Shown one piece after another: positions 5,140-56,527 of a DNA stretch of 64,000 bases. Source of the stretch: Oxalobacter sp. Its GTDB lineage: Bacteria > Pseudomonadota > Gammaproteobacteria > Burkholderiales > Burkholderiaceae_D. The notes beneath the pieces are model-generated. The model saw only the letters and a list, made by a program, of their open reading frames with translations. It had not been told where the DNA came from and did no database searches. Where the stretch lies: the NCBI GenBank assembly GCA_003605115.1, contig QZKY01000007.1, forward strand, positions 1 through 64,000. The letters run 5' to 3'. A program made the position numbers and the translations under genes. How positions within the stretch are numbered: the first letter of the stretch is position 1; every line of letters starts with the position of its first letter.

Positions 5140-6783
5140 ATGCGACAACCGGCAATCAATCAGCTCGCTTCCTATCAACGGCTTCAGCAGCACGTGGCGC
5201 AGGCAAGAAATTGGCAAATGCGTGATTTGTTTACGCAATCCCCCGAGCGTTTTCCCGCCATGACGGTCTCGGCTGCGGGGCTCTTTCTCGATTATTCCAA
5301 AAACAGGGTGAATGGCACCACAGTGACGCTGCTCTGCGATTTGGCGCGAGAGCGGGGTCTGGAAGCACAACGCGATGCCATGTTCGCGGGTGAAAAGTTT
5401 AACAACACAGAAAAACGCGCCGTGCTGCACACCGCCTTGCGCGCCCCGCGCACACTCAAACTGAACATCGATGGCCAGGATGTTGCGCAAGACGTGCATG
5501 CGGTGCTGGATCGCATGGCGGCTTTCACGAAGCGCGTACACAGCGGACAGTGGCTGGGGTACACCGGCAAAAAGATTTCAGACATTGTGAACATCGGTAT
5601 AGGGGGTTCCGATCTCGGCCCCAAAATGGTGTGCCTCGGCCTTCGCATGTTTGCGCAACCGGGCATTCGCATGCATTTCGTTTCCAACGTGGATGGTCAC
5701 GACATGGATGCGACGCTCAAGCAGGTGAATCCTGAAACGACGTTGTTCATCGTGGCCTCGAAGACTTTCACCACGATGGAAACGATGCTCAACGCGAACA
5801 CCGCGCGCAGCTGGTTTTTGCGTAGCGGGAAGGAAAAGGATTTACCCAAGCATTTTGTGGCGGTTTCCACGAACACAGAAGGCGTCAAGGCTTTCGGCAT
5901 TGATACGGAAAACATGTTCCCGTTCTGGGATTGGGTCGGCGGACGCTATTCGGTCTGGTCCGCGATTGGTTTGCCGGTGGCGCTGGCGGTGGGATACGAA
6001 AATTTTGCGGCATTCCTCGCGGGCGCACATGCGATGGATGCGCATTTCCGCACCGCGCCGATGGAATCCAATATGCCGATGATCATGGGGCTTATCGGAT
6101 TGTGGAATCGAAATTTTCTTGGGTTGTCATCGCTCACGATTGCACCCTATCACCACGACCTCGCACGTTTCCCCGCGTATTTGCAGCAGTTGATCATGGA
6201 AAGCAATGGCAAAACCGTGATGAAAGACGGTTCGCCTGTCGGTGTGGCGACCTGTCCGGCGCTGTGGGGCGATATCGGCACCAACGGACAGCACGCCTAT
6301 TTTCAGTTGCTGCATCAGGGCGCGGATGTGATCCCGATTGATTTCATCGCCTCGCTCAAGGCAGGACACGCTTTGCCCGGACATCAAGACGCGCTGCTGG
6401 CGAATTGCTTTGCACAAGCCGAAGCCTTCATGCGCGGCAAAACGGCGGACGAAGTGCGCGACGATTTGCGTGCGCAAAAGTTGAGTGATGCAGATATTGA
6501 GATGCTGGTGCCACACCGCACCTTCCCTGGCAATCGGCCGAGTAACATGATCTTGATGGAGGAGCTCACCCCTTCAGCTTTGGGGGCATTGATCGCGCTG
6601 TATGAACACATCACCTTTGTGCAAGGCGTGCTGTGGGGCGTGAACAGCTTCGACCAATGGGGTGTTGAGCTCGGCAAGGTGCTGGCGCAAAACATTCAAC
6701 AGGAGCTGACGGGTGAAGTCATGCCGGAGCGGCACGACAGCTCGACGAATGGATTGATTGCGCGCGCACGCGCTGCAAAATAA
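5140..6783 (+). CDS. pgi: glucose-6-phosphate isomerase
   Basis: Pgi interconverts glucose 6-phosphate and fructose 6-phosphate. The 547-residue length and the segments NIGIGGSDLGPKMV, VGGRYSVWSAIGL (PROSITE-type isomerase signature), MESNGKTVMKDG and GTNGQHAYFQLLHQG are all characteristic. Start choice is backed by a good GAGGAG ribosome-binding site and the promoter upstream. The last ~320 bases of the gene recur at 9288-9615 as a frameshifted remnant, with a two-gene cassette in between; the copy here is intact and is surely the functional one. Confidence 0.96.
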   Translation: MRQPAINQLASYQRLQQHVAQARNWQMRDLFTQSPERFPAMTVSAAGLFLDYSKNRVNGTTVTLLCDLARERGLEAQRDAMFAGEKFNNTEKRAVLHTALRAPRTLKLNIDGQDVAQDVHAVLDRMAAFTKRVHSGQWLGYTGKKISDIVNIGIGGSDLGPKMVCLGLRMFAQPGIRMHFVSNVDGHDMDATLKQVNPETTLFIVASKTFTTMETMLNANTARSWFLRSGKEKDLPKHFVAVSTNTEGVKAFGIDTENMFPFWDWVGGRYSVWSAIGLPVALAVGYENFAAFLAGAHAMDAHFRTAPMESNMPMIMGLIGLWNRNFLGLSSLTIAPYHHDLARFPAYLQQLIMESNGKTVMKDGSPVGVATCPALWGDIGTNGQHAYFQLLHQGADVIPIDFIASLKAGHALPGHQDALLANCFAQAEAFMRGKTADEVRDDLRAQKLSDADIEMLVPHRTFPGNRPSNMILMEELTPSALGALIALYEHITFVQGVLWGVNSFDQWGVELGKVLAQNIQQELTGEVMPERHDSSTNGLIARARAAK

Positions 6784-6808
6784 AGGTGAGATGCGAGGAA
6801 CACGGCGT

Positions 6809-7744
6809 TCAGAATCCCATGACCCATTCGGCCTGCACATATTTGTAACGGTAGTCCGGTCCGTGGAATGAGGCGCTTTGGCTATATCCGCCGCGCAATC
6901 GCAAACCGTAATTGTCCTTCGTTCCGTTTTGCACACTAACTTCCAGAAGTTTTGTTGGCGAGAGATCGTCATCTTCCACTTTTTGCCTTCCGATACCGGC
7001 GCGCGCATTGGCCATCCATCCCAGGATGCGTTGGCGCCAGCCGATGAGCAACATGCCCTCGTCATAACGATCCGGGTTGAAATAGGCACCGTCAACATCT
7101 TCACGGGCGCTGGTGTAAACGCGATACTGTGCTTGCAATGTCAGGCCAAGATTAAGATCGGGTTGATAAATAAAACGTACGCGTCCGTGGTTGCGATGAT
7201 TGCCATCAGAAAAATCCTGATAGCCTGCGAGGCCTACGAGCGTGACATGTTGTCCCAGCCCTTGTTCGATACTGGCGCCGCCGTAAGTAAAGTTGATGCC
7301 GTTATCCAGAGCATTCGCCGTTTCCACCCAATTGCGGTTAATAAAAAATTCGATGTTGGTTTGTTTTGCGATGGGGGTGCGGAAGCTTCCATCCAGCGTC
7401 AGCAAGTCGCGGCTGTGCTGTTGAAAAATGCCGGCTTCCATTTGCCACCCGTAGGCTGTTTTGGGGTCAATATTTCTGTGCAGCACGCTGATTTGCTGGC
7501 CGCTACGAGACCAATCGTTTTGCTCGTAGGTGTAATGGCTGTATCGAACACCCGTCTGCGAATCGATATGCTGGAAGAGAGGGAGGTATTCGCCGCCAAT
7601 TCGTTGTGTATGAAAGTTTTCGCTGTCAGTTGAAAAAAACACGTCTGCGCCAACGCCAGTGCGGGTACTGTCGGCTGCGAAGATGGGCGGGCAGGCCAGT
7701 AGAGTCAGCAAGAATGCCCATTTCTTCTGTGGCGTGCATTTCAT
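6809..7744 (-). CDS. YaiO-like outer-membrane beta-barrel protein
   Basis: A 311-residue predicted outer-membrane protein. The start is fixed by an ATGA overlap with the stop codon of the upstream glycosyltransferase gene, which indicates translational coupling. A signal peptide (KKWAFLLTLLACPPIFAADS) is followed by alternating hydrophobic/polar strands and an aromatic C terminus (YVQAEWVMGF) ending in Phe, the usual barrel-assembly signal. The pairing of a family-2 glycosyltransferase with a YaiO-type barrel recalls the E. coli yaiO-yaiP pair. I infer a role in export or surface placement of the glycan made by the neighbour. Family membership is from memory of the pattern, so the name is tentative. 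Confidence 0.7.
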   Translation of the reverse strand: MKCTPQKKWAFLLTLLACPPIFAADSTRTGVGADVFFSTDSENFHTQRIGGEYLPLFQHIDSQTGVRYSHYTYEQNDWSRSGQQISVLHRNIDPKTAYGWQMEAGIFQQHSRDLLTLDGSFRTPIAKQTNIEFFINRNWVETANALDNGINFTYGGASIEQGLGQHVTLVGLAGYQDFSDGNHRNHGRVRFIYQPDLNLGLTLQAQYRVYTSAREDVDGAYFNPDRYDEGMLLIGWRQRILGWMANARAGIGRQKVEDDDLSPTKLLEVSVQNGTKDNYGLRLRGGYSQSASFHGPDYRYKYVQAEWVMGF

Positions 7745-10942: not shown

Positions 10943-10999
10943 TGCTTTTGCGCGCTACAGTGTGCGCTAGCCTCAGGATGGCGCAGTAAAAACCGGAGG

Positions 11000-11061
11000 A
11001 AAAACCGGAGTCAGAGTCAAATATCGCGAAGCGAATTTTGACTCTGACCCCGAATTTTTCT
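11000..11061 (+). repeat. dispersed 60-bp palindromic repeat, copy 1
   Basis: Arms (G)GGAGTCAGAGTCAAA and TTTGACTCTGACCCC-like sequence surround a GCGAAGCG loop region; the outer flanks GAAAAACC and GAATTTTTC also pair in part. This copy is in the CCG-left/GAA-right orientation. It abuts the last attC site of the cassette array and follows tal. Confidence 0.9.
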
Positions 11062-11118
11062 GGTTAACGCCGAGCTAGCGGGCACGCTTGCGTGTCCGTG
11101 TTCAGCGACAGGTTAAAT
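11062..11118 (-). other. attC recombination site of cassette 3 (array A)
   Basis: Read on the minus strand, the 57-base site runs from the R'' core ATTTAAC to the R' end GTTAAC. Inner boxes GCTGAAC and GCTAGC pair with one extrahelical base, around the stem ACACGC/GCGTG(C). The R'' end (CATTTAAC) is the exact complement of the start of its own cassette (GTTAAATG at 11428-11435), which is the diagnostic property of an integron cassette. This is the last attC of the array; beyond it lies the dispersed repeat and tal. Confidence 0.8.
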
Positions 11119-11163
11119 GGCGGCGCGCTGTATTTCATCTCTCACCTCATTCGGCACGTTCGT

Positions 11164-11430
11164 CTAAGCCACATCGGGACTAAGCTGCAGCCGCAAGCCC
11201 ATCTCTTGGCCGGCAACGTTCACAATATGAGCAAACCACTTAGCGCATTGACTGTCCTTTTTCGTTGCGAACTTAAACGCTGCTCTTTCCTGATCCCAGT
11301 AAATTCCTGCTGCTGCGCGATACACGTATTGGTAAGAAGGACTCCCACCACTTGCTAATTGAAGAAAAAGTACACCGTCCTCCGACAACTCGACTCTGGA
11401 TATTTCTTCACTTTTCAATGGAGTAGCCAT
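11164..11430 (-). CDS. integron cassette protein of unknown function (88 aa)
   Basis: A small soluble protein whose ATG overlaps the recombination core itself (GTTAAATG), so the junction with the previous cassette supplies its translation signals. The middle (YQYVYRAAAGIYWDQERAAF) resembles a family of short proteins I remember from integron cassettes and metagenomes (a YRAA...WD pattern), but no function is known to me. It lacks a signal peptide and membrane segments. It is followed by 45 bases and then its attC. The boundaries are well supported by the matching cassette ends. Confidence 0.75.
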   Translation of the reverse strand: MATPLKSEEISRVELSEDGVLFLQLASGGSPSYQYVYRAAAGIYWDQERAAFKFATKKDSQCAKWFAHIVNVAGQEMGLRLQLSPDVA

Positions 11431-11446
11431 TTAACGTTGGTTAGAC
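11429..11446 (-). other. collapsed attC between cassettes 2 and 3
   Basis: On the minus strand GTCTAAC and GTTAAAT cores are only four bases apart (18 bases in all), whereas a working attC needs a hairpin of about 57 bases or more. GAGGTCTAAC at this end is the exact complement of the start of cassette 2 (GTTAGACCTC near 12195-12204), proving the boundary. The central stem appears deleted, which would lock cassette 2 in place. Confidence 0.75.
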
Positions 11447-11447
11447 C

Positions 11448-12191
11448 TCATTTCGTTTTGCCCTCCCTCATGTCCTTTTCAGCTTCGGCAATCACTTCAC
11501 GCAGAACTGCTGTAACTTCCCCCGGCTGAGATGCCAATTCCCTCTGACAAACTGCCATTACCGGCTTATGCTGGATAGCGTTTGAAATGAGTGACCATCT
11601 TGCGGCACCACCAACCAATAGACGGGAAGTGTCGCCACGGACGTTAATCCACGGTAGAGCTGAAATGATTCTGACTATCGGGGCGTCATCACCGGTTGCC
11701 ATGAAATCCCCCCAAAGTGCGTCAAGCACCCAGGAGCCTTTCTCTAACGGCAATTCCAGCAGACTTGGACGGTCATTGGCCAACAAGTGGTCAATCATCT
11801 TCTTGTGCTTTGACATTGATTGCGCAAGTCTCTTTAATAGCGGCTTTGCTTCGGGATAAGTCGAATACCAGATACCCAAGATAAGCACTGGTTGATCGAC
11901 TTCAGGAAGAGAAACGAGCTGTTCAGCGAGAGATTGAGCAGTTGAAGGATTCTTAGATATTACCCCGGCAACGAAACCGATAAACGGTGGGGCTCTCCGT
12001 CCGTCCTTCATGAAACCTTGGGAACTTGCAGCGCGGATCGCTTCGGCGACACGGTGCGGTTCAGGGTTCGAGTAGTAATACGTGATCCAATGCCCAAGTG
12101 AATTCGCATCGGAGAAATTTCCCTCAGCTGCAAACGCAAGGGAACACACCAAGAACCATGAAAAAAGAAGTGCCCGAACGAAAGTTTTCAT
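11448..12191 (-). CDS. exported integron cassette protein of unknown function (247 aa)
   Basis: I do not recognise this protein. It begins with a clear signal peptide (KTFVRALLFSWFLVCSLAFAAEG), so it should act in the periplasm or outside. The mature part is helical-looking with repeated short amphipathic stretches, which might form a helical-repeat fold, but this is a guess. The ATG lies 7 bases after the attC core of the previous cassette, with no convincing ribosome site, as in many cassettes. The stop codon is next to the collapsed attC. It is the middle gene of a three-cassette array read on the minus strand. Confidence 0.75.
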   Translation of the reverse strand: MKTFVRALLFSWFLVCSLAFAAEGNFSDANSLGHWITYYYSNPEPHRVAEAIRAASSQGFMKDGRRAPPFIGFVAGVISKNPSTAQSLAEQLVSLPEVDQPVLILGIWYSTYPEAKPLLKRLAQSMSKHKKMIDHLLANDRPSLLELPLEKGSWVLDALWGDFMATGDDAPIVRIISALPWINVRGDTSRLLVGGAARWSLISNAIQHKPVMAVCQRELASQPGEVTAVLREVIAEAEKDMREGKTK

Positions 12192-12197
12192 GATGAG

Positions 12198-12284
12198 GTC
12201 TAACGTAGAGCTAACCGGCGCTGCGCGGGTTTATCGCGCAGCGTCCAGCGACTGAAAGGAGCGAGGTTGAGCGTCGGGTTAGGC
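12198..12284 (-). other. attC recombination site of cassette 1 (array A)
   Basis: An 87-base site. On the minus strand R'' is GCCTAAC and R' is GTTAGAC; inner boxes GCTCAACC and GGTTAGC pair with a single extra base, and a long stem CGCTGCGCG/CGCGCAGCG closes on a short loop. GTGGTGCCTAAC at the R'' end exactly complements the cassette start GTTAGGCACCAC at 12951-12962. The upstream gene's TAA stop lies inside R'', a common cassette layout. Confidence 0.88.
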
Positions 12285-12935
12285 ACCACTTTTGCAGACC
12301 TCAAGGTTTTGATCCAACTCGGGAGACTGCGCAACTGCAACGAACGCGTTTCCTTTCGCCTGATGATGGGATAAGAAGGCCAAGAAATGGGTCTGATTTG
12401 TGTGCGAGGCAATGTGATGCTGACTCAATAGATTTGAGAATTTCATTCCCCAAGAAAGAGCTCGCTCCACGGTGGGCGGCTGCTTTGGCTTGGTTGAATG
12501 GAATATGCTGGAAAGGCTCCCGCGATGGAGGTGCCCCCCGCATTCGTGGTACAGCGCAATGAGCTCCTGTTTTGTGAGATAGCTGGACTCAACTCGCTCG
12601 ATATGAATGCTGCCAGGAGAAAATGTGCAAACAATTGGGTGGGGGTAGAAGTTCGGATGAAGCTGCTCTAGCTGCTTCAGGATGTCGTCAGCAGCGTACT
12701 GCTTCTGAAGTTTCTTGCTCTTGGTGGCATCAATGTCCCCGTGAGCGAGAAGGCATCCAATTGCGACTAGTTCGCAGAGCAAGCGGAGTTGTAGATAACA
12801 AAGTTCTGCCGACATCCAAGGTGGAAGTGATGCGGTCCCGGCAACGATGGTGTTAATCCCAAGGATTCGCGTGCGAATCTCGTCAAGAATATTGGCATAG
12901 GCGACTGCGTTAGGATTTCTGTCTCGCTGGGGCAT
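12279..12935 (-). CDS. integron cassette protein of unknown function (218 aa)
   Basis: First gene after the attI-like leader of array A. I recognise no family. It is a soluble protein without signal peptide; visible features are a His/Cys-containing stretch ECGGHLHRGSL near residue 131 and a mostly helical N-terminal half (LRLLCELVAIGCLLAHG). Its stop codon is within the R'' core of the attC. The start ATG is about 26 bases after the recombination point. Cassette location suggests an accessory, locally selected role; nothing in the sequence shows which. Confidence 0.72.
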   Translation of the reverse strand: MPQRDRNPNAVAYANILDEIRTRILGINTIVAGTASLPPWMSAELCYLQLRLLCELVAIGCLLAHGDIDATKSKKLQKQYAADDILKQLEQLHPNFYPHPIVCTFSPGSIHIERVESSYLTKQELIALYHECGGHLHRGSLSSIFHSTKPKQPPTVERALSWGMKFSNLLSQHHIASHTNQTHFLAFLSHHQAKGNAFVAVAQSPELDQNLEVCKSGA

Positions 12936-12956
12936 AAGCAGTGGGTTTTGTGGTGC

Positions 12957-13041
12957 CTAACGTGTTATAGATCGCAAAACCGCATAATAACATCGGCACT
13001 GCGTAATAACATGGAAATCCAAACCCTCTAAAACCCGCATG
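12957..13041 (-). other. attI-like leader of cassette array A
   Basis: Read on the minus strand this ends at the recombination point ACACG/TTAGGC, just before cassette 1. It contains two GTTATT(A) direct repeats 19 bases apart (CATGTTATTACGCAG and GATGTTATTATGCGG) before the GTTAGGC core. The layout matches, from memory, the paired GATGTTA...GCAG direct repeats of attI1 in class 1 integrons with the same 19-base spacing. The same leader, with an identical 17-base core TGCCGATGTTATTATGC, occurs at 41681-41765. No integrase gene is adjacent on either side. Confidence 0.75.
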
Positions 13042-13180
13042 GATACTGGCTTTCACTTCCCAATCGTCTGATATCAGCGCTCATAACAAACCCGCAAACC
13101 ACGCAGCGCATTTAGCCGGAACTGGTTTAATAAAAAATAAAATTGCCGTACATCAATGAATATTTCTGGCAGAAGACAAA

Positions 13181-13243
13181 GGGAAAATTCGGGGTCAGAG
13201 TAATTTACGATGCGCGTAAAAAAACTCTGACCCCGGTTTTCCC
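13181..13243 (-). repeat. dispersed palindromic repeat, copy 2
   Basis: Arms GGGGTCAGAGT and ACTCTGACCCC around AATTTACG-ATG-CGCGTAAA. The outer flanks GGGAAAATTC and GGTTTTCCC pair; left TTC and right CGG mark the reverse orientation. It lies between the attI-like leader and acrR. Apart from this copy and the leader, the region 13042-13334 holds no gene I can support. Confidence 0.92.
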
Positions 13244-13334
13244 GGAGCTTCGTTACGTAAGGTGCGTGTGATTGGGGGCTTCAGTTTTTCCAAAGCTTCG
13301 TTGAGACTCAGCAGCAATGCCAGGCGAACTTAGC

Positions 13335-13973
13335 TCAAACCTTTTTCCTCAACGCTGGATTCGTCCGCATGTTGTCGAGTGCCGCGTTGAGGATGATGTT
13401 GGCATCGTCGACCAGATCAAAACTATCCGGCATCAGCAACCAATTGCTCATCAAACCGCTGAAAGTGGTTTGCAGCATGAGCGCGCCCAAACGAAGGTCG
13501 AGATCATGGGGTAATTGATTTTTTGCGATAGCGTTGGCAAGAATGCGCTTCGTGGATTCGCGCGTGTGCATCAGCCAATCGCGCTGGTAGAGCAGGATCG
13601 GATCGTCGGCATCGGTGGCTTCGTAGCGATGATAGATGATGGTCATCACTTTACGAAAATTATGATTCTCAACCACGGATCGCCGGAAAGCGGAACCCAT
13701 GATGAGCAACTGGCCGAGCGGGTCGGTCGTTTTCTCACTGGAGACTTCTTCGACAAGGGCGTAGATAGGTTCTCTGACGCGATTGCACATGGCATCAAAC
13801 AGATCCGCCTTGTTTTTAAAATGCCAATAGATTGCGCCGCGTGTGACGCCGGCGGCCTGGGCAACGCCATTGAGCGAGGTGTTGGACACGCCGTTCTCAT
13901 AAAATACATCCGTTGCCGCATCGATAATGCGTTCACGGGTTTCTTGCGCTTTTTCTTTGGTATTGCGAGCCAT
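13335..13973 (-). CDS. acrR: TetR-family repressor of the adjacent RND efflux operon (AcrR type)
   Basis: A 212-residue regulator with an N-terminal helix-turn-helix (TSLNGVAQAAGVTRGAIYWHF) typical of AcrR/TtgR/MexL-like repressors and a ligand-binding C-terminal domain. I choose the ATG at 13973 (MARNTKEKAQ) because the alternative start at 14006 would lie inside the operator palindrome and adds residues foreign to the family. It is transcribed divergently from the acrAB-oprM-like operon and should repress it, and itself, until a toxic compound binds. Confidence 0.9.
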   Translation of the reverse strand: MARNTKEKAQETRERIIDAATDVFYENGVSNTSLNGVAQAAGVTRGAIYWHFKNKADLFDAMCNRVREPIYALVEEVSSEKTTDPLGQLLIMGSAFRRSVVENHNFRKVMTIIYHRYEATDADDPILLYQRDWLMHTRESTKRILANAIAKNQLPHDLDLRLGALMLQTTFSGLMSNWLLMPDSFDLVDDANIILNAALDNMRTNPALRKKV

Positions 13974-25704: not shown

Positions 25705-25768
25705 GAGAAAACCGGGGTCAGCAGTTTTATTTCGCGTAGCGAAATTTACTCTGACCCCGAATTTTCTC
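25705..25768 (+). repeat. dispersed palindromic repeat, copy 4
   Basis: Arms GGGGTCAGCAGTTT and AATTTACTCTGACCCC around ATTTCGCGTAGCGA. Flanks GAGAAAA/TTTTCTC pair perfectly. Left CCG and right GAA give the forward orientation. It follows hrpA; the rest of 25674-25978 shows nothing I can name. Confidence 0.92.
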
Positions 25769-41103: not shown

Positions 41104-41168
41104 CGTAAAAAAACAGGGTCAGAGTTTTTTTACGCGAAGCGTAAATTACGCTGACCCCATTTTTCGCG
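41104..41168. repeat. dispersed palindromic repeat, copy 5
   Basis: Arms AGGGTCAGAGTTTTTTTACG and CGTAAATTACGCTGACCCC around CGAAG. Outer flanks CGTAAAAA and TTTTTCGCG pair nearly fully. It lies between ftsH and the cytosine deaminase gene. Confidence 0.92.
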
Positions 41169-41212: not shown

Positions 41213-41656
41213 ATGGACTACAAATCTTTGCTGTCGGTAGCGCTTGAAGAAGCGAAACAAGGATTGGCCGAAGGCGGCGTGCCGGTGGGCGCAGCATTGT
41301 TCGATGCGCAGGGCAAGGTGCTCGGGCGAGGACACAACCGTCGCGTGCAGGAAGGCGACCCATCGATTCATGGAGAAACCGATGCCTTTCGCAAGGCAGG
41401 GCGACAGCGCACCTACCGAGACAAGATTCTGGTGACGACGCTCGATCCCTGCTGGTATTGCAGTGGACTGATTCGCCAGTTCAACATCGGCACGGTGATT
41501 GTTGGTGAATCGGTCAACTTCAAGGGCGGATCGGATTGGCTGCGCGAAAACGGCGTGAACGTGATTGATCTGGCCGATGCTGAATGCATCACAATGATGC
41601 GGGATTTCATTGCGACGCATCCGGAGCTGTGGAACGAGGATATTGGGGTGGATTGA
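41213..41656 (+). CDS. cytosine deaminase of the yeast FCY1 type
   Basis: A 147-residue zinc enzyme expected to deaminate cytosine to uracil for pyrimidine salvage. Zinc ligands are H53 and the PC80xxC83 pair, with the proton-shuttling E55 (HGET). The protein resembles yeast Fcy1 all along: EGGVPVGAALF, GRGHNRR, IVGESVNFKGG and a C-terminal WNEDIG matching WFEDIG. It is not the larger amidohydrolase CodA of enteric bacteria. A tRNA adenosine deaminase (TadA) is less likely because that family lacks the C-terminal match. An AAGGAAA ribosome site precedes the ATG. Confidence 0.87.
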   Translation: MDYKSLLSVALEEAKQGLAEGGVPVGAALFDAQGKVLGRGHNRRVQEGDPSIHGETDAFRKAGRQRTYRDKILVTTLDPCWYCSGLIRQFNIGTVIVGESVNFKGGSDWLRENGVNVIDLADAECITMMRDFIATHPELWNEDIGVD

Positions 41657-41680
41657 AAGCGTCGTCGATGAGCCAATAAG

Positions 41681-41765
41681 CATGCGCGATTTAGGTGGTT
41701 AAACTTTCCATTTTATTGTGTACTTGCCGATGTTATTATGCAATTTAGCGATTTACAACACGTTA
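41681..41765 (+). other. attI-like leader of cassette array B
   Basis: This leader matches the one at 12957-13041 (on the opposite strand), sharing TTTCCAT, the 17-base core TGCCGATGTTATTATGC, then GCGAT-TA-AACACGTTAG. It ends at the recombination point ACACG/TTAGAG before a cassette. The similarity fades before position 41681. No integrase gene is upstream: the neighbour is the cytosine deaminase gene. Confidence 0.75.
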
Positions 41766-41773
41766 GAGCGCGT

Positions 41774-42442
41774 ATGCCGACAGTTAGCCGAGCCGTAGAA
41801 GTAAAGTTGGACGAAGCAGACATTCTTGCCGACCTGTACAGCATTAGTTACGACCTTGGCTTGGCGACACACCTCGCCAAGGCGGCGCGAAAGGCTGCGG
41901 CAGACGGGGAAGATTCGATAGTTGTTGAAGGCATTTTCACTGCCTCGCTAATCCGCTATTTCCGTTGCTTCGCTACGAATGTGCGCCTTGGTCTGGTGCG
42001 CTTCGATCTCGCTGAACTCAGCGACGAGCTATTGAAGCAGCACGACTACTTTAAAGACCTTCGAGACAAGTTTGTTGCCCACTCAGTTAACCCTTTTGAA
42101 GAAAATTGGGTGACCGCGACCGCGATCGTCCGTGATGGTGTTCAGCAACCCATCACTGCCTTGGGTCATGGATGCCATCGTTTGGTGTTGCACGTCCGGG
42201 AGGCTCGCGGCTTAAGCGCCTTGATCAAGCAGGTTCGGTATATCGTTGAAGGAAAGATAAAGGCTGAAGAGCAACGTTTGCTCGTCGTGATTCAAGCATT
42301 ACCTCCGGATTTCATACATGGCTCAGACCTCCGCTCTCCAGCCCGTTTTTCGTTAAACGATGTTGGGCGCAGTCGGCAACAGACTCGCGCTCTAACATCT
42401 CGCTCAACACGGAAGCGCGCAAAAACAGCGCGCGACGGTTAG
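41774..42442 (+). CDS. integron cassette protein, possible HEPN-like fold
   Basis: A 222-residue protein starting at the ATG just after the cassette boundary. I do not recognise the family. The helical region around residues 85-110 contains DLRDKFVAHS, an Arg-x5-His arrangement like that of HEPN ribonucleases and related helical-bundle proteins, so a nucleotide- or RNA-linked role is possible but unproven. The frame runs into the attC, so the last ~17 residues (LTSRSTRKRAKTARDG region, very basic) are encoded by the recombination site. Cassette ends CGCGCTCTAAC and GTTAGAGCGCG match perfectly. Confidence 0.75.
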   Translation: MPTVSRAVEVKLDEADILADLYSISYDLGLATHLAKAARKAAADGEDSIVVEGIFTASLIRYFRCFATNVRLGLVRFDLAELSDELLKQHDYFKDLRDKFVAHSVNPFEENWVTATAIVRDGVQQPITALGHGCHRLVLHVREARGLSALIKQVRYIVEGKIKAEEQRLLVVIQALPPDFIHGSDLRSPARFSLNDVGRSRQQTRALTSRSTRKRAKTARDG

Positions 42443-42453
42443 CTCAACCTTAC
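42389..42453 (+). other. attC site of the cassette in array B
   Basis: R'' GCTCTAAC is complementary to the cassette start GTTAGAGC at 41762-41769 over 11 bases. Inner boxes GCTCAAC and GTTAGC pair with one extra base; the stem is GCGCGC/GCGCGC. The R' side is degenerate (CTTACCA rather than GTTRRRY), so the cassette may have joined a non-standard site or the next cassette has decayed. Confidence 0.75.
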
Positions 42454-42468
42454 CAATGGGAACTCTCT

Positions 42469-43483: not shown

Positions 43484-43610
43484 AAACAGGGTCAGGGAAA
43501 AATTCGGGGTCAGTGCCCGCAAAAATGGGGTCAGAGTAATTTACGCTGCGCGTAAAAAAACTCTGACCCCATTTTTGCTAATAGTTGACTCTGCCCCCGG
43601 TTTTTCCGGC
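43484..43610. repeat. nested dispersed repeats, copy 6 inside an older copy
   Basis: A complete palindrome (43519-43578; arms GGGGTCAGAGTAATTTACG and CGTAAAAAAACTCTGACCCC, flanks GCAAAAAT/ATTTTTGC) interrupts an older copy whose halves remain as GGAAAAATTCGGGGTCAG before it and CTGCCCCCGGTTTTTCC after it. A further half copy (ACAGGGTCAG) lies at 43487-43496. This shows that these units insert as whole modules. Confidence 0.85.
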
Positions 43611-52125: not shown

Positions 52126-52184
52126 GGAAACCGGGGTCAGCAGTTTATTTTGCGAAGCAAAATTACGCTGACCCTGAATTTTCC
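52126..52184 (+). repeat. dispersed palindromic repeat, copy 7
   Basis: Arms GGGGTCAGCAGTTTATTTTG and CAAAATTACGCTGACCCT around CGAAG; flanks GGAAA/TTTTCC pair; left CCG and right GAA give the forward orientation. It lies between the divergent cyclase and toxin genes; the rest of 51968-52236 shows no gene. Confidence 0.92.
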
Positions 52185-52854: not shown

Positions 52855-52914
52855 GGAAAACCAGGGTCAGTAGTTTATTTTGCGAAGCAAAATTACTCTG
52901 ACCCTGAATTTTCC
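52855..52914 (+). repeat. dispersed palindromic repeat, copy 8
   Basis: Nearly identical to copy 7 (arms AGGGTCAGTAGTTTATTTTG and CAAAATTACTCTGACCCT, loop CGAAG). Flanks GGAAAACC/GAATTTTCC pair partly. Copies 7 and 8 frame the toxin-antitoxin pair in the same orientation. Confidence 0.92.
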
Positions 52915-56459: not shown

Positions 56460-56527
56460 ATGGGAAAATTCAGGGTCAGAGTCAAAAATTCGCTTCGCGA
56501 TATTTGACTCTGACCCTGGTTTTCCCA
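56460..56527 (-). repeat. dispersed palindromic repeat, copy 9
   Basis: Arms AGGGTCAGAGTCAAA and TTTGACTCTGACCCT around AATTCGCTTCGCGATA; flanks TGGGAAAA/TTTTCCCA pair perfectly. Left TTC and right TGG give the reverse orientation. It lies between the divergent htpG and UPF0016 genes, unlike most copies. Confidence 0.92.

Follow-up and report, generated by a model that had tools for sequence, protein, structure and literature searches.

An integron normally combines one integrase gene (intI), one adjacent attI site and one cassette array. The repeated leader sequence analysed here resembles the attI sites of class 1 and class 3 integrons in being a short site beside a divergent intI with a LexA-type box, with presumed insertion at G^TT and candidate repeats upstream of the core. 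It departs from them in that most copies lack intI in cis and no intI was detected in the genome, in that many copies occur per chromosome, and in that the leaders tested other than the one at 12957 are not clearly similar to those sites in sequence.

Arrays without an integrase are known as CALIN, as defined in the IntegronFinder 2.0 paper (PMC9024848). The arrays considered here share with CALIN attC cassettes without intI, but differ in that a recognisable attI heads short arrays and one repeated sequence is found at many loci. A precedent for an attI-headed array lacking an integrase comes from a Shewanella prophage, where the array similarly lies apart from the integrase-bearing integron (PMC9892861); two attI copies are reported there, whereas here there are a dozen in one genome and leaders in at least 15 of 44 genera, with intI-less copies that appear to multiply. 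Pieces of attI moved away from intI are also represented by the delta-attI-type cassettes of class 1 and 2 integrons; PMC12901181 reports that IntI1 can cut these units out and insert them. In them, the attI piece replaces the 3' attC in an integron cassette, whereas here it heads dispersed chromosomal arrays. By analogy with this activity of IntI1, movement of an attI unit by an integrase would be possible in principle. Finally, attG sites (Loot et al. 2024, as cited in PMC12444791 and PMC12901181) similarly receive cassettes at many chromosomal places; these sites are described there as divergent from classical att sites, whereas the leaders described here are mutually homologous over 95-220 bases. 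In the open-access literature, which leaves subscription papers largely outside, we found no account of attI dispersing as an independent unit throughout a family, with a dozen copies in a genome.

Two leaders and their cassettes in the window

The window is the whole stretch of 64,000 nucleotides of Oxalobacter sp. DNA that was analysed. In it, the first-pass annotation had noted two attI-like leaders in opposite orientation that share a 17-base core, and both observations hold: the window contains two exact occurrences of the core TGCCGATGTTATTATGC and no more, one on the forward strand (Table 1) and one at 12982-12998 on the reverse strand, and the two leader copies, denoted 41671 and 12957 below, are about 28.7 kb apart. 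By itself, the 17-mer is weak evidence, given that about 0.5 identical 17-mer pair is expected by chance in 64 kb (by arithmetic); when shuffled sequences were searched with the core, permitting three mismatches, at least two matches were found in 2 of 100 shuffles. Over the full leaders, 74 of 96 positions are identical (41671-41766, forward strand, aligned with 12957-13051, reverse strand), and a genome search with the 41671 leader recovered the 12957 leader with E=6.4e-14. The bounds originally assigned to the former, 41681-41765, require revision: the start lies at about 41671, and the end is the GTTAG of the insertion point (41762-41766). Two repeats of the ATGTTATTA type are located upstream of the GTT core in the 12957 copy and one clear repeat in the 41671 copy. 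The latter is preceded by a deaminase ORF (41213-41656). Around the start of the 12957 array, no sigma-70-like promoter was found in 12900-13200.

The two leaders could, as considered in the first-pass annotation, represent the ends of one larger duplicated region. This possibility is ruled out because the 3-kb surroundings of the two copies detectably share only the leader and a dispersed palindrome (E<=1e-3).

Each leader is directly followed by a cassette start, as originally proposed, and the first seven bases of the cassette are complementary to the R'' of its own attC, namely, GTTAGAG to CTCTAAC at 42390 for the 41671 copy and GTTAGGC to GCCTAAC at 12284 for the 12957 copy. At each of the four attC sites in the window, the R'' heptamer is the exact complement of the seven bases that open its own cassette, as would be expected of a cassette that had formerly been a circle. 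The R' of the attC of the 41671 cassette looks mutated. Among the cassette proteins, that of cassette 3 in the 12957 array shows a weak match to the Pfam family Hfx_Cass5 'Integron Cassette Protein' (22.8 bits, with a cut-off of 25), and nothing was found in Pfam or PADLOC for the other three or for the product of a longer ORF of the 41671 cassette that starts at 41738. With two full attC sites and a collapsed one, the 12957 array qualifies as CALIN (at least two attC, without intI), whereas the 41671 array, with one attC, lies below the usual CALIN threshold, and for neither window array was the intI in cis that characterizes a complete integron found.

Table 1. Coordinates of the leaders, cassettes, attC sites and palindromes in the window
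Feature	Position	Strand	Details
orphan attI leader, left-truncated copy	41671..41766	+	R1 E=3.5e-18 (copy among the ten in the model); profile E=4e-21; insertion point GTTAG 41762-41766
17-base core, contains DR1-like repeat CGATGTTATTATGC	41725..41741	+	alignments
single cassette of 41671 array	41762..42449 (end approximate)	+	ORF 41774-42442, 222 aa
attC of 41671 cassette	42390..42456	+	R'' CTCTAAC complementary to GTTAGAG; R' = CTTACCA
orphan attI leader, full length	12957..13106	-	R1 E=4.4e-34 (copy in model); DR-like repeats CATGTTATTACGCAG, CGATGTTATTATGC; GTTAG 12961-12957
left flank common to other intI-less genus copies	13107..13173 (end approximate)	-	no intI similarity found
cassette 1, 12957 array	12205..12961	-	ORF 12279-12935, 218 aa, without Pfam/PADLOC match
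attC of cassette 1, 12957 array	12198..12284	-	R'' exact complement of cassette start
cassette 2, 12957 array	11436..12204	-	ORF 11448-12191, 247 aa, without Pfam/PADLOC match
attC of cassette 2, 12957 array	11429-11446	-	collapsed to R'' + R'
cassette 3, 12957 array	11069..11435	-	ORF 11164-11430, 88 aa
attC of cassette 3, 12957 array	11062..11118	-	R'' exact complement of cassette start
palindrome, 1 base past last attC of 12957 array	10998..11060	.	
palindrome, ~10 bases outside left end of 12957 unit	13182..13242	.	
palindrome, left of 41671 unit	41108..41162	.	
palindrome, right of 41671 unit	43525..43577	.	
further window palindromes	25707-25765, 52128-52183, 52856-52913, 56463-56525		

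The leader as an attI site and the distribution of its integrase

Its homologues identify the leader as an attI site. Several relatives carry this sequence between a divergent intI and cassettes, which substantiates the attI-like identity suggested in the first-pass annotation. The divergent intI is directly adjacent to the leader in four cases (G018:C84, G199:C1, G242:C178 and G347:C47; intI E 6.7e-126 to 8.5e-133), with 24-27 bases between the leader and the matched start of the gene. With the integron integrase model, whose cut-off is 265 bits, these integrases reach 420-443 bits, and the one from G199 (Noviherbaspirillum massiliense) shows 64% identity with IntI1 and 69% with IntI3 (plasmid-borne). 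This adjacency is a property of the homologues and not of the window copies. All four aligned intI-linked copies contain, inside the leader and near the integrase start, a CTGT-N8-ACAG box, which we take to be the LexA box of other integrons; given this box and the position of the leader beside a divergent intI, the leader probably combines the integrase promoter with attI. GTT is present at the core in 39 of 45 profile matches.

Direct comparison of seven leaders with attI1 and attI3 yielded one high score, for the 12957 copy against attI1 (z 3.8, with the alignment better than those of 500/500 shuffles); in the remaining 13 comparisons, z ranged from -1.3 to 2.7. Thus, the sequence kinship of the leaders to clinical attI sites appears weak although the integrases are close. 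The possibility that the leader is an attC-type repeat was rejected because it aligns to the intI-linked attI instead. Searching Rfam at the gathering threshold with five sources detected two tRNAs only and no match to an attC or attI family. N. massiliense has another intact intI as well, which differs in sequence (G199:C2:288667; L153 18168-19109, reverse strand) and beside which no R1-type leader was found.

To survey the leader, we used a model (R1) built from ten copies by sequence only. In the 2.32 Mb genome, 12 copies were detected with E<1e-4, six of which are in the model, and these occupy 12 places followed by differing first cassettes, in agreement with the earlier proposal of a dispersed attI element rather than one decayed integron. 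In the family, R1 has matches in at least 33 of the 392 sampled genomes, from at least 15 of 44 genera. The exact core is present in six named Burkholderiales, listed here with the genomes that probably correspond to them in brackets: RIFCSPLOWO2_02_FULL_57_36 (G018), N. massiliense (G199), N. galbum (G059), Oxalobacteraceae bacterium OM1 (G242), Janthinobacterium fluminis (G353) and Collimonas sp. OK607. The genomes are drafts, and some copies lie close to contig ends, including two weaker ones in this genome (C17 and C8). Recent carriage of the leader by plasmids or phages was rejected: plasmid searches with two leaders each yielded a single short piece, of 28 bases in one case and of 38 bases, at a umuD gene, in the other, and no exact match to the core pattern was found in viral contigs.

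This genome, which is 99.94% complete and consists of 17 contigs, has no protein that exceeds the integron integrase cut-off, the best match scoring 83.6 bits; the same search produced below-cut-off matches in 14 of 14 control genomes, as expected of XerC/XerD-type recombinases. None was detected in the two other genomes of the genus at E<=1e-30, and we see no sign that an integrase moved the unit; the original suggestion of a mobile unit moved by an integrase encoded elsewhere is without support in that form. Gaps in the draft may hide an integrase. No intI similarity was detected upstream of any of the 12 copies (tblastn E<=0.01, 1.8-3 kb examined). Among 45 copies from 13 genomes, for which 0.5 to 3 kb of upstream sequence was examined depending on the locus, four adjoin a full-length intI (one with a stop), eight adjoin a pseudogene or remnant, and for 33, none is detectable. 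Outside the genus, these form a series of decay, from an intact intI to one with a single stop (G018:C84), a pseudogene (G199:C2:272k), short remnants (G199:C2:860k, G018:C140, G026:C41, G085 and G059) and, ultimately, none. Some of the orphan copies in other genera thus plainly appear to be integrons that lost intI in place. Together with five N. massiliense copies that do not group in the tree of leaders, this series indicates that the orphan copies probably have more than one origin.

Probable spread of the unit within the genus

In a tree of 36 rows, a branch with support 100/99 separates ten leaders of the genus (eight from this genome and two from G001) from the other rows; nine of the 45 copies, four of them from this genome, were omitted as very short or degenerate. 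The midpoint root was used for drawing only, and a genus clade presumes a root outside the genus; with such a root, the genus copies would stem from copying inside the genus or in its ancestor rather than from repeated import. Five genus copies (12957, C1:335 kb and C11:78 kb in this genome and two in G001) have a common left flank that extends about 50-110 bases past the leader, to about -212 to -267, and in which no intI was found. This shared non-intI flank suggests that the copied unit had already lost intI, so that the intI-less attI unit itself would have multiplied. A second common-flank group consists of six copies from G018 and G004, with similarity to about -185 or beyond, and a third group joins G347 and G353; there is no left end common to all genus copies.

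At the 12957 locus, both genus relatives encode a transaldolase and TetR/efflux proteins in the same order, with a P-type ATPase in between (Pfam), and lack the leader. The P-type ATPase gene of the relatives (L197, L198) is missing here, and the attI array takes its place (window 10943-13340). Because the relatives hold this gene instead of the leader and cassettes, the 12957 copy would be a lineage-specific insertion or replacement, as judged from this one locus. Around 41671, no comparable synteny was found in the relatives, and a reciprocal empty-site search with the G001:C73 copy returned mainly leader pieces and short repeats.

Several repeats occur around the leaders. A dispersed palindrome of about 60 bases (GGGGTCAGAGT...ACTCTGACCCC) is represented by 20 copies in the 221 kb of the genome examined, 12 of which lie within 2.5 kb of a leader. 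In G018 and G004, the shared unit has an inverted attI core (ATGTTATAAAT versus ATTTATAACA) at its left boundary, about 190 bases ahead of the core itself (loci L142, L143, L071, L144 and L145 in G018 and L166 in G004). The reversed left-flank profile of this group matches positions from about -20 to +1 of many leaders, each match being weak (E 0.3-2.6) and the leaders not independent. As clues to the mover, we treat the inverted core and the palindrome enrichment considered below as leads, not results. A second repeat, of the CTGCCAGTGCAGCAAAAGCGGG type, closely precedes the shortest leaders (C5:10 kb, C5:36 kb, C14 and C17; L061, L062, L065 and L163) and seems to have cut them down. In G001, a 389-codon ORF, by eye presumably an IS30-type transposase, ends just left of the C49 leader (L068 11497-12666, reverse strand), and similar DNA is placed likewise in another genus, in G347:C69 (start of L160).

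Proposed cassette capture and the origin of the orphan sites

Collecting the leaders and comparing what follows them, a check proposed in the first-pass annotation, showed that each precedes a different cassette: a first-cassette ORF, defined as the longest one with 60 or more codons and a start no further than 450 bases from the core, was obtained for 44 of the 45 copies in 13 genomes, and none of the 946 ORF pairs are similar (E<=1e-3). Even copies that are near-twins in leader and flank carry unrelated first cassettes. The cassettes would thus have arrived after the leader copies were made.

The attC of the first cassette was sought for 39 of the 45 leaders, the six without GTT at the core being left out. 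A strict test was passed by 15 of the 39 copies, compared to 7 of 780 dinucleotide shuffles; with the fold threshold at 0.5, the count was 14 of 39, and the threshold was lowered to 0.45 after that result. The exact R'' heptamer is present in 23 of the 39 copies and in 37 of the 780 shuffles. An opposite-strand control, with 12 matches in 123 at 0.5, was set aside in favor of the shuffles; its matches are mostly attC sites or leader cores read from the other strand, and the upstream control points yielded 0 of 3. A score based on arm alignment separated attC sites poorly. The remaining 24 of the 39 copies fail the strict test, which means either that decay is common among the arrays or that the test asks too much. 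The two window copies are among those that miss the fold criterion despite an exact R'', seemingly due to a long branched stem in one and the mutated R' in the other. Cassettes after the first are mostly doubtful and were not used; those in the window were re-derived by hand.

Two of the cassette genes at orphan attI sites are defence-like, encoding a TIR-domain protein (PF13676, E=1e-12; L064 ~11100-12030, reverse strand) and a NucC-like nuclease (PADLOC NucC E=2.2e-20, Pfam DUF6602; L062 ~6516-7389, forward strand). Homologous DNA (61% over 426 bases) occupies the second-cassette position in N. massiliense (L154, about 611 bases past the core) and the first in G026 (L156, from about 14820 on), which suggests cassette exchange between orphan sites of the two genera. 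An attC-like stretch of the C4 array (L060 ~11616-11682) is 84% identical over 67 bases to an attC of G001:C73 (L067 113-178), so attC sites appear to be related across orphan arrays of the genus.

The scenario that we favor, with a probability of roughly 0.62, is that an intI-less attI unit was copied to a dozen places and then loaded with cassettes by an integrase acting in trans. Under this scenario, the leader would derive from the attI of an integron lineage of the family (Oxalobacteraceae-type Burkholderiales), the full copies also holding the neighbouring integrase promoter and the first few integrase codons. In this genus, the attI unit, already without intI, would have been copied to a dozen chromosomal places, each copy would then have served as a landing pad where an integrase in trans inserted different cassettes at G^TT, and the integrase would since have been lost from the genome or missed in the draft. 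We infer the capture in trans and the order of events from the combination of an intI cut off before copying with unrelated cassettes on near-twin copies, which implies either an integrase at another locus or later exchange by other means. The integrase elsewhere that was invoked in the first-pass annotation thus survives in a different role, not as the mover of the unit but as the probable agent of cassette insertion. What counts against this scenario is the apparent lack, today, of an integrase that could act in trans.

The decay series in the relatives, the failure of the N. massiliense copies to group and the persistence of a LexA-box-like CTGT...ACAG in the C11:84 kb copy of this genome all speak for a different history, in which complete integrons, with intI, attI and cassettes, were inserted at many places and each lost intI independently, leaving orphans that are fossils without a partner in trans. 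For this genus, we consider such a history unlikely, given that none of the 12 copies retains a detectable intI remnant, that the common non-intI left flanks and the grouping of the genus indicate that at least these copies multiplied without intI, and that, in addition to the common flanks, the empty sites at one locus speak against it. The attI unit could also have been a passenger of other repeats, moved, for example, by a transposase acting on the GGGGTCAGAGT palindrome or on flanking insertion sequences, with the cassettes travelling along. The 12957 unit is indeed bracketed by palindromes within about 10 and 1 bases, and there are 12 palindromes within 2.5 kb of the 12 leaders, where sets of 12 random intergenic points have 6.9 on average (p=0.049), with palindromes on both sides of four of the 12 leaders, compared to 1.33 expected (p=0.036). 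This enrichment is modest, however, with p 0.03-0.05 at 1-2.5 kb and no significance at 500 bases (p=0.23); no palindrome comes within 2.5 kb of C4, C11:78 kb or C17, the only one at C1 is 2.7 kb away, and the 8-base palindrome half occurs only twice in six leader-bearing loci of G001 and G018. Moreover, the first cassettes differ between copies, so that the cassettes did not travel with the leader, and we regard passenger transport as improbable.

It is conceivable, at clearly less than even odds, that the integron is split, with attI having turned into a non-autonomous repeat, about 0.2 kb long, which spreads through the chromosome independently of intI and provides many pads for one integrase in trans, the G018/G004 unit being bounded by the inverted core. 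If so, the inverted core would let the integrase act on both ends of that unit, and captured genes would be spread over the genome rather than queued in one array. Homology to intI-linked leaders offers a means of recognising attI sites outside the clinical classes, and what appear to be real attI copies stand at the head of some integrase-less cassettes. These findings suggest that the docking site has spread by itself and that a distant integrase formerly served it; with the site repeated and no longer tied to an integrase gene, a single integrase, resident or visiting, could load cassettes at many places in the genome.
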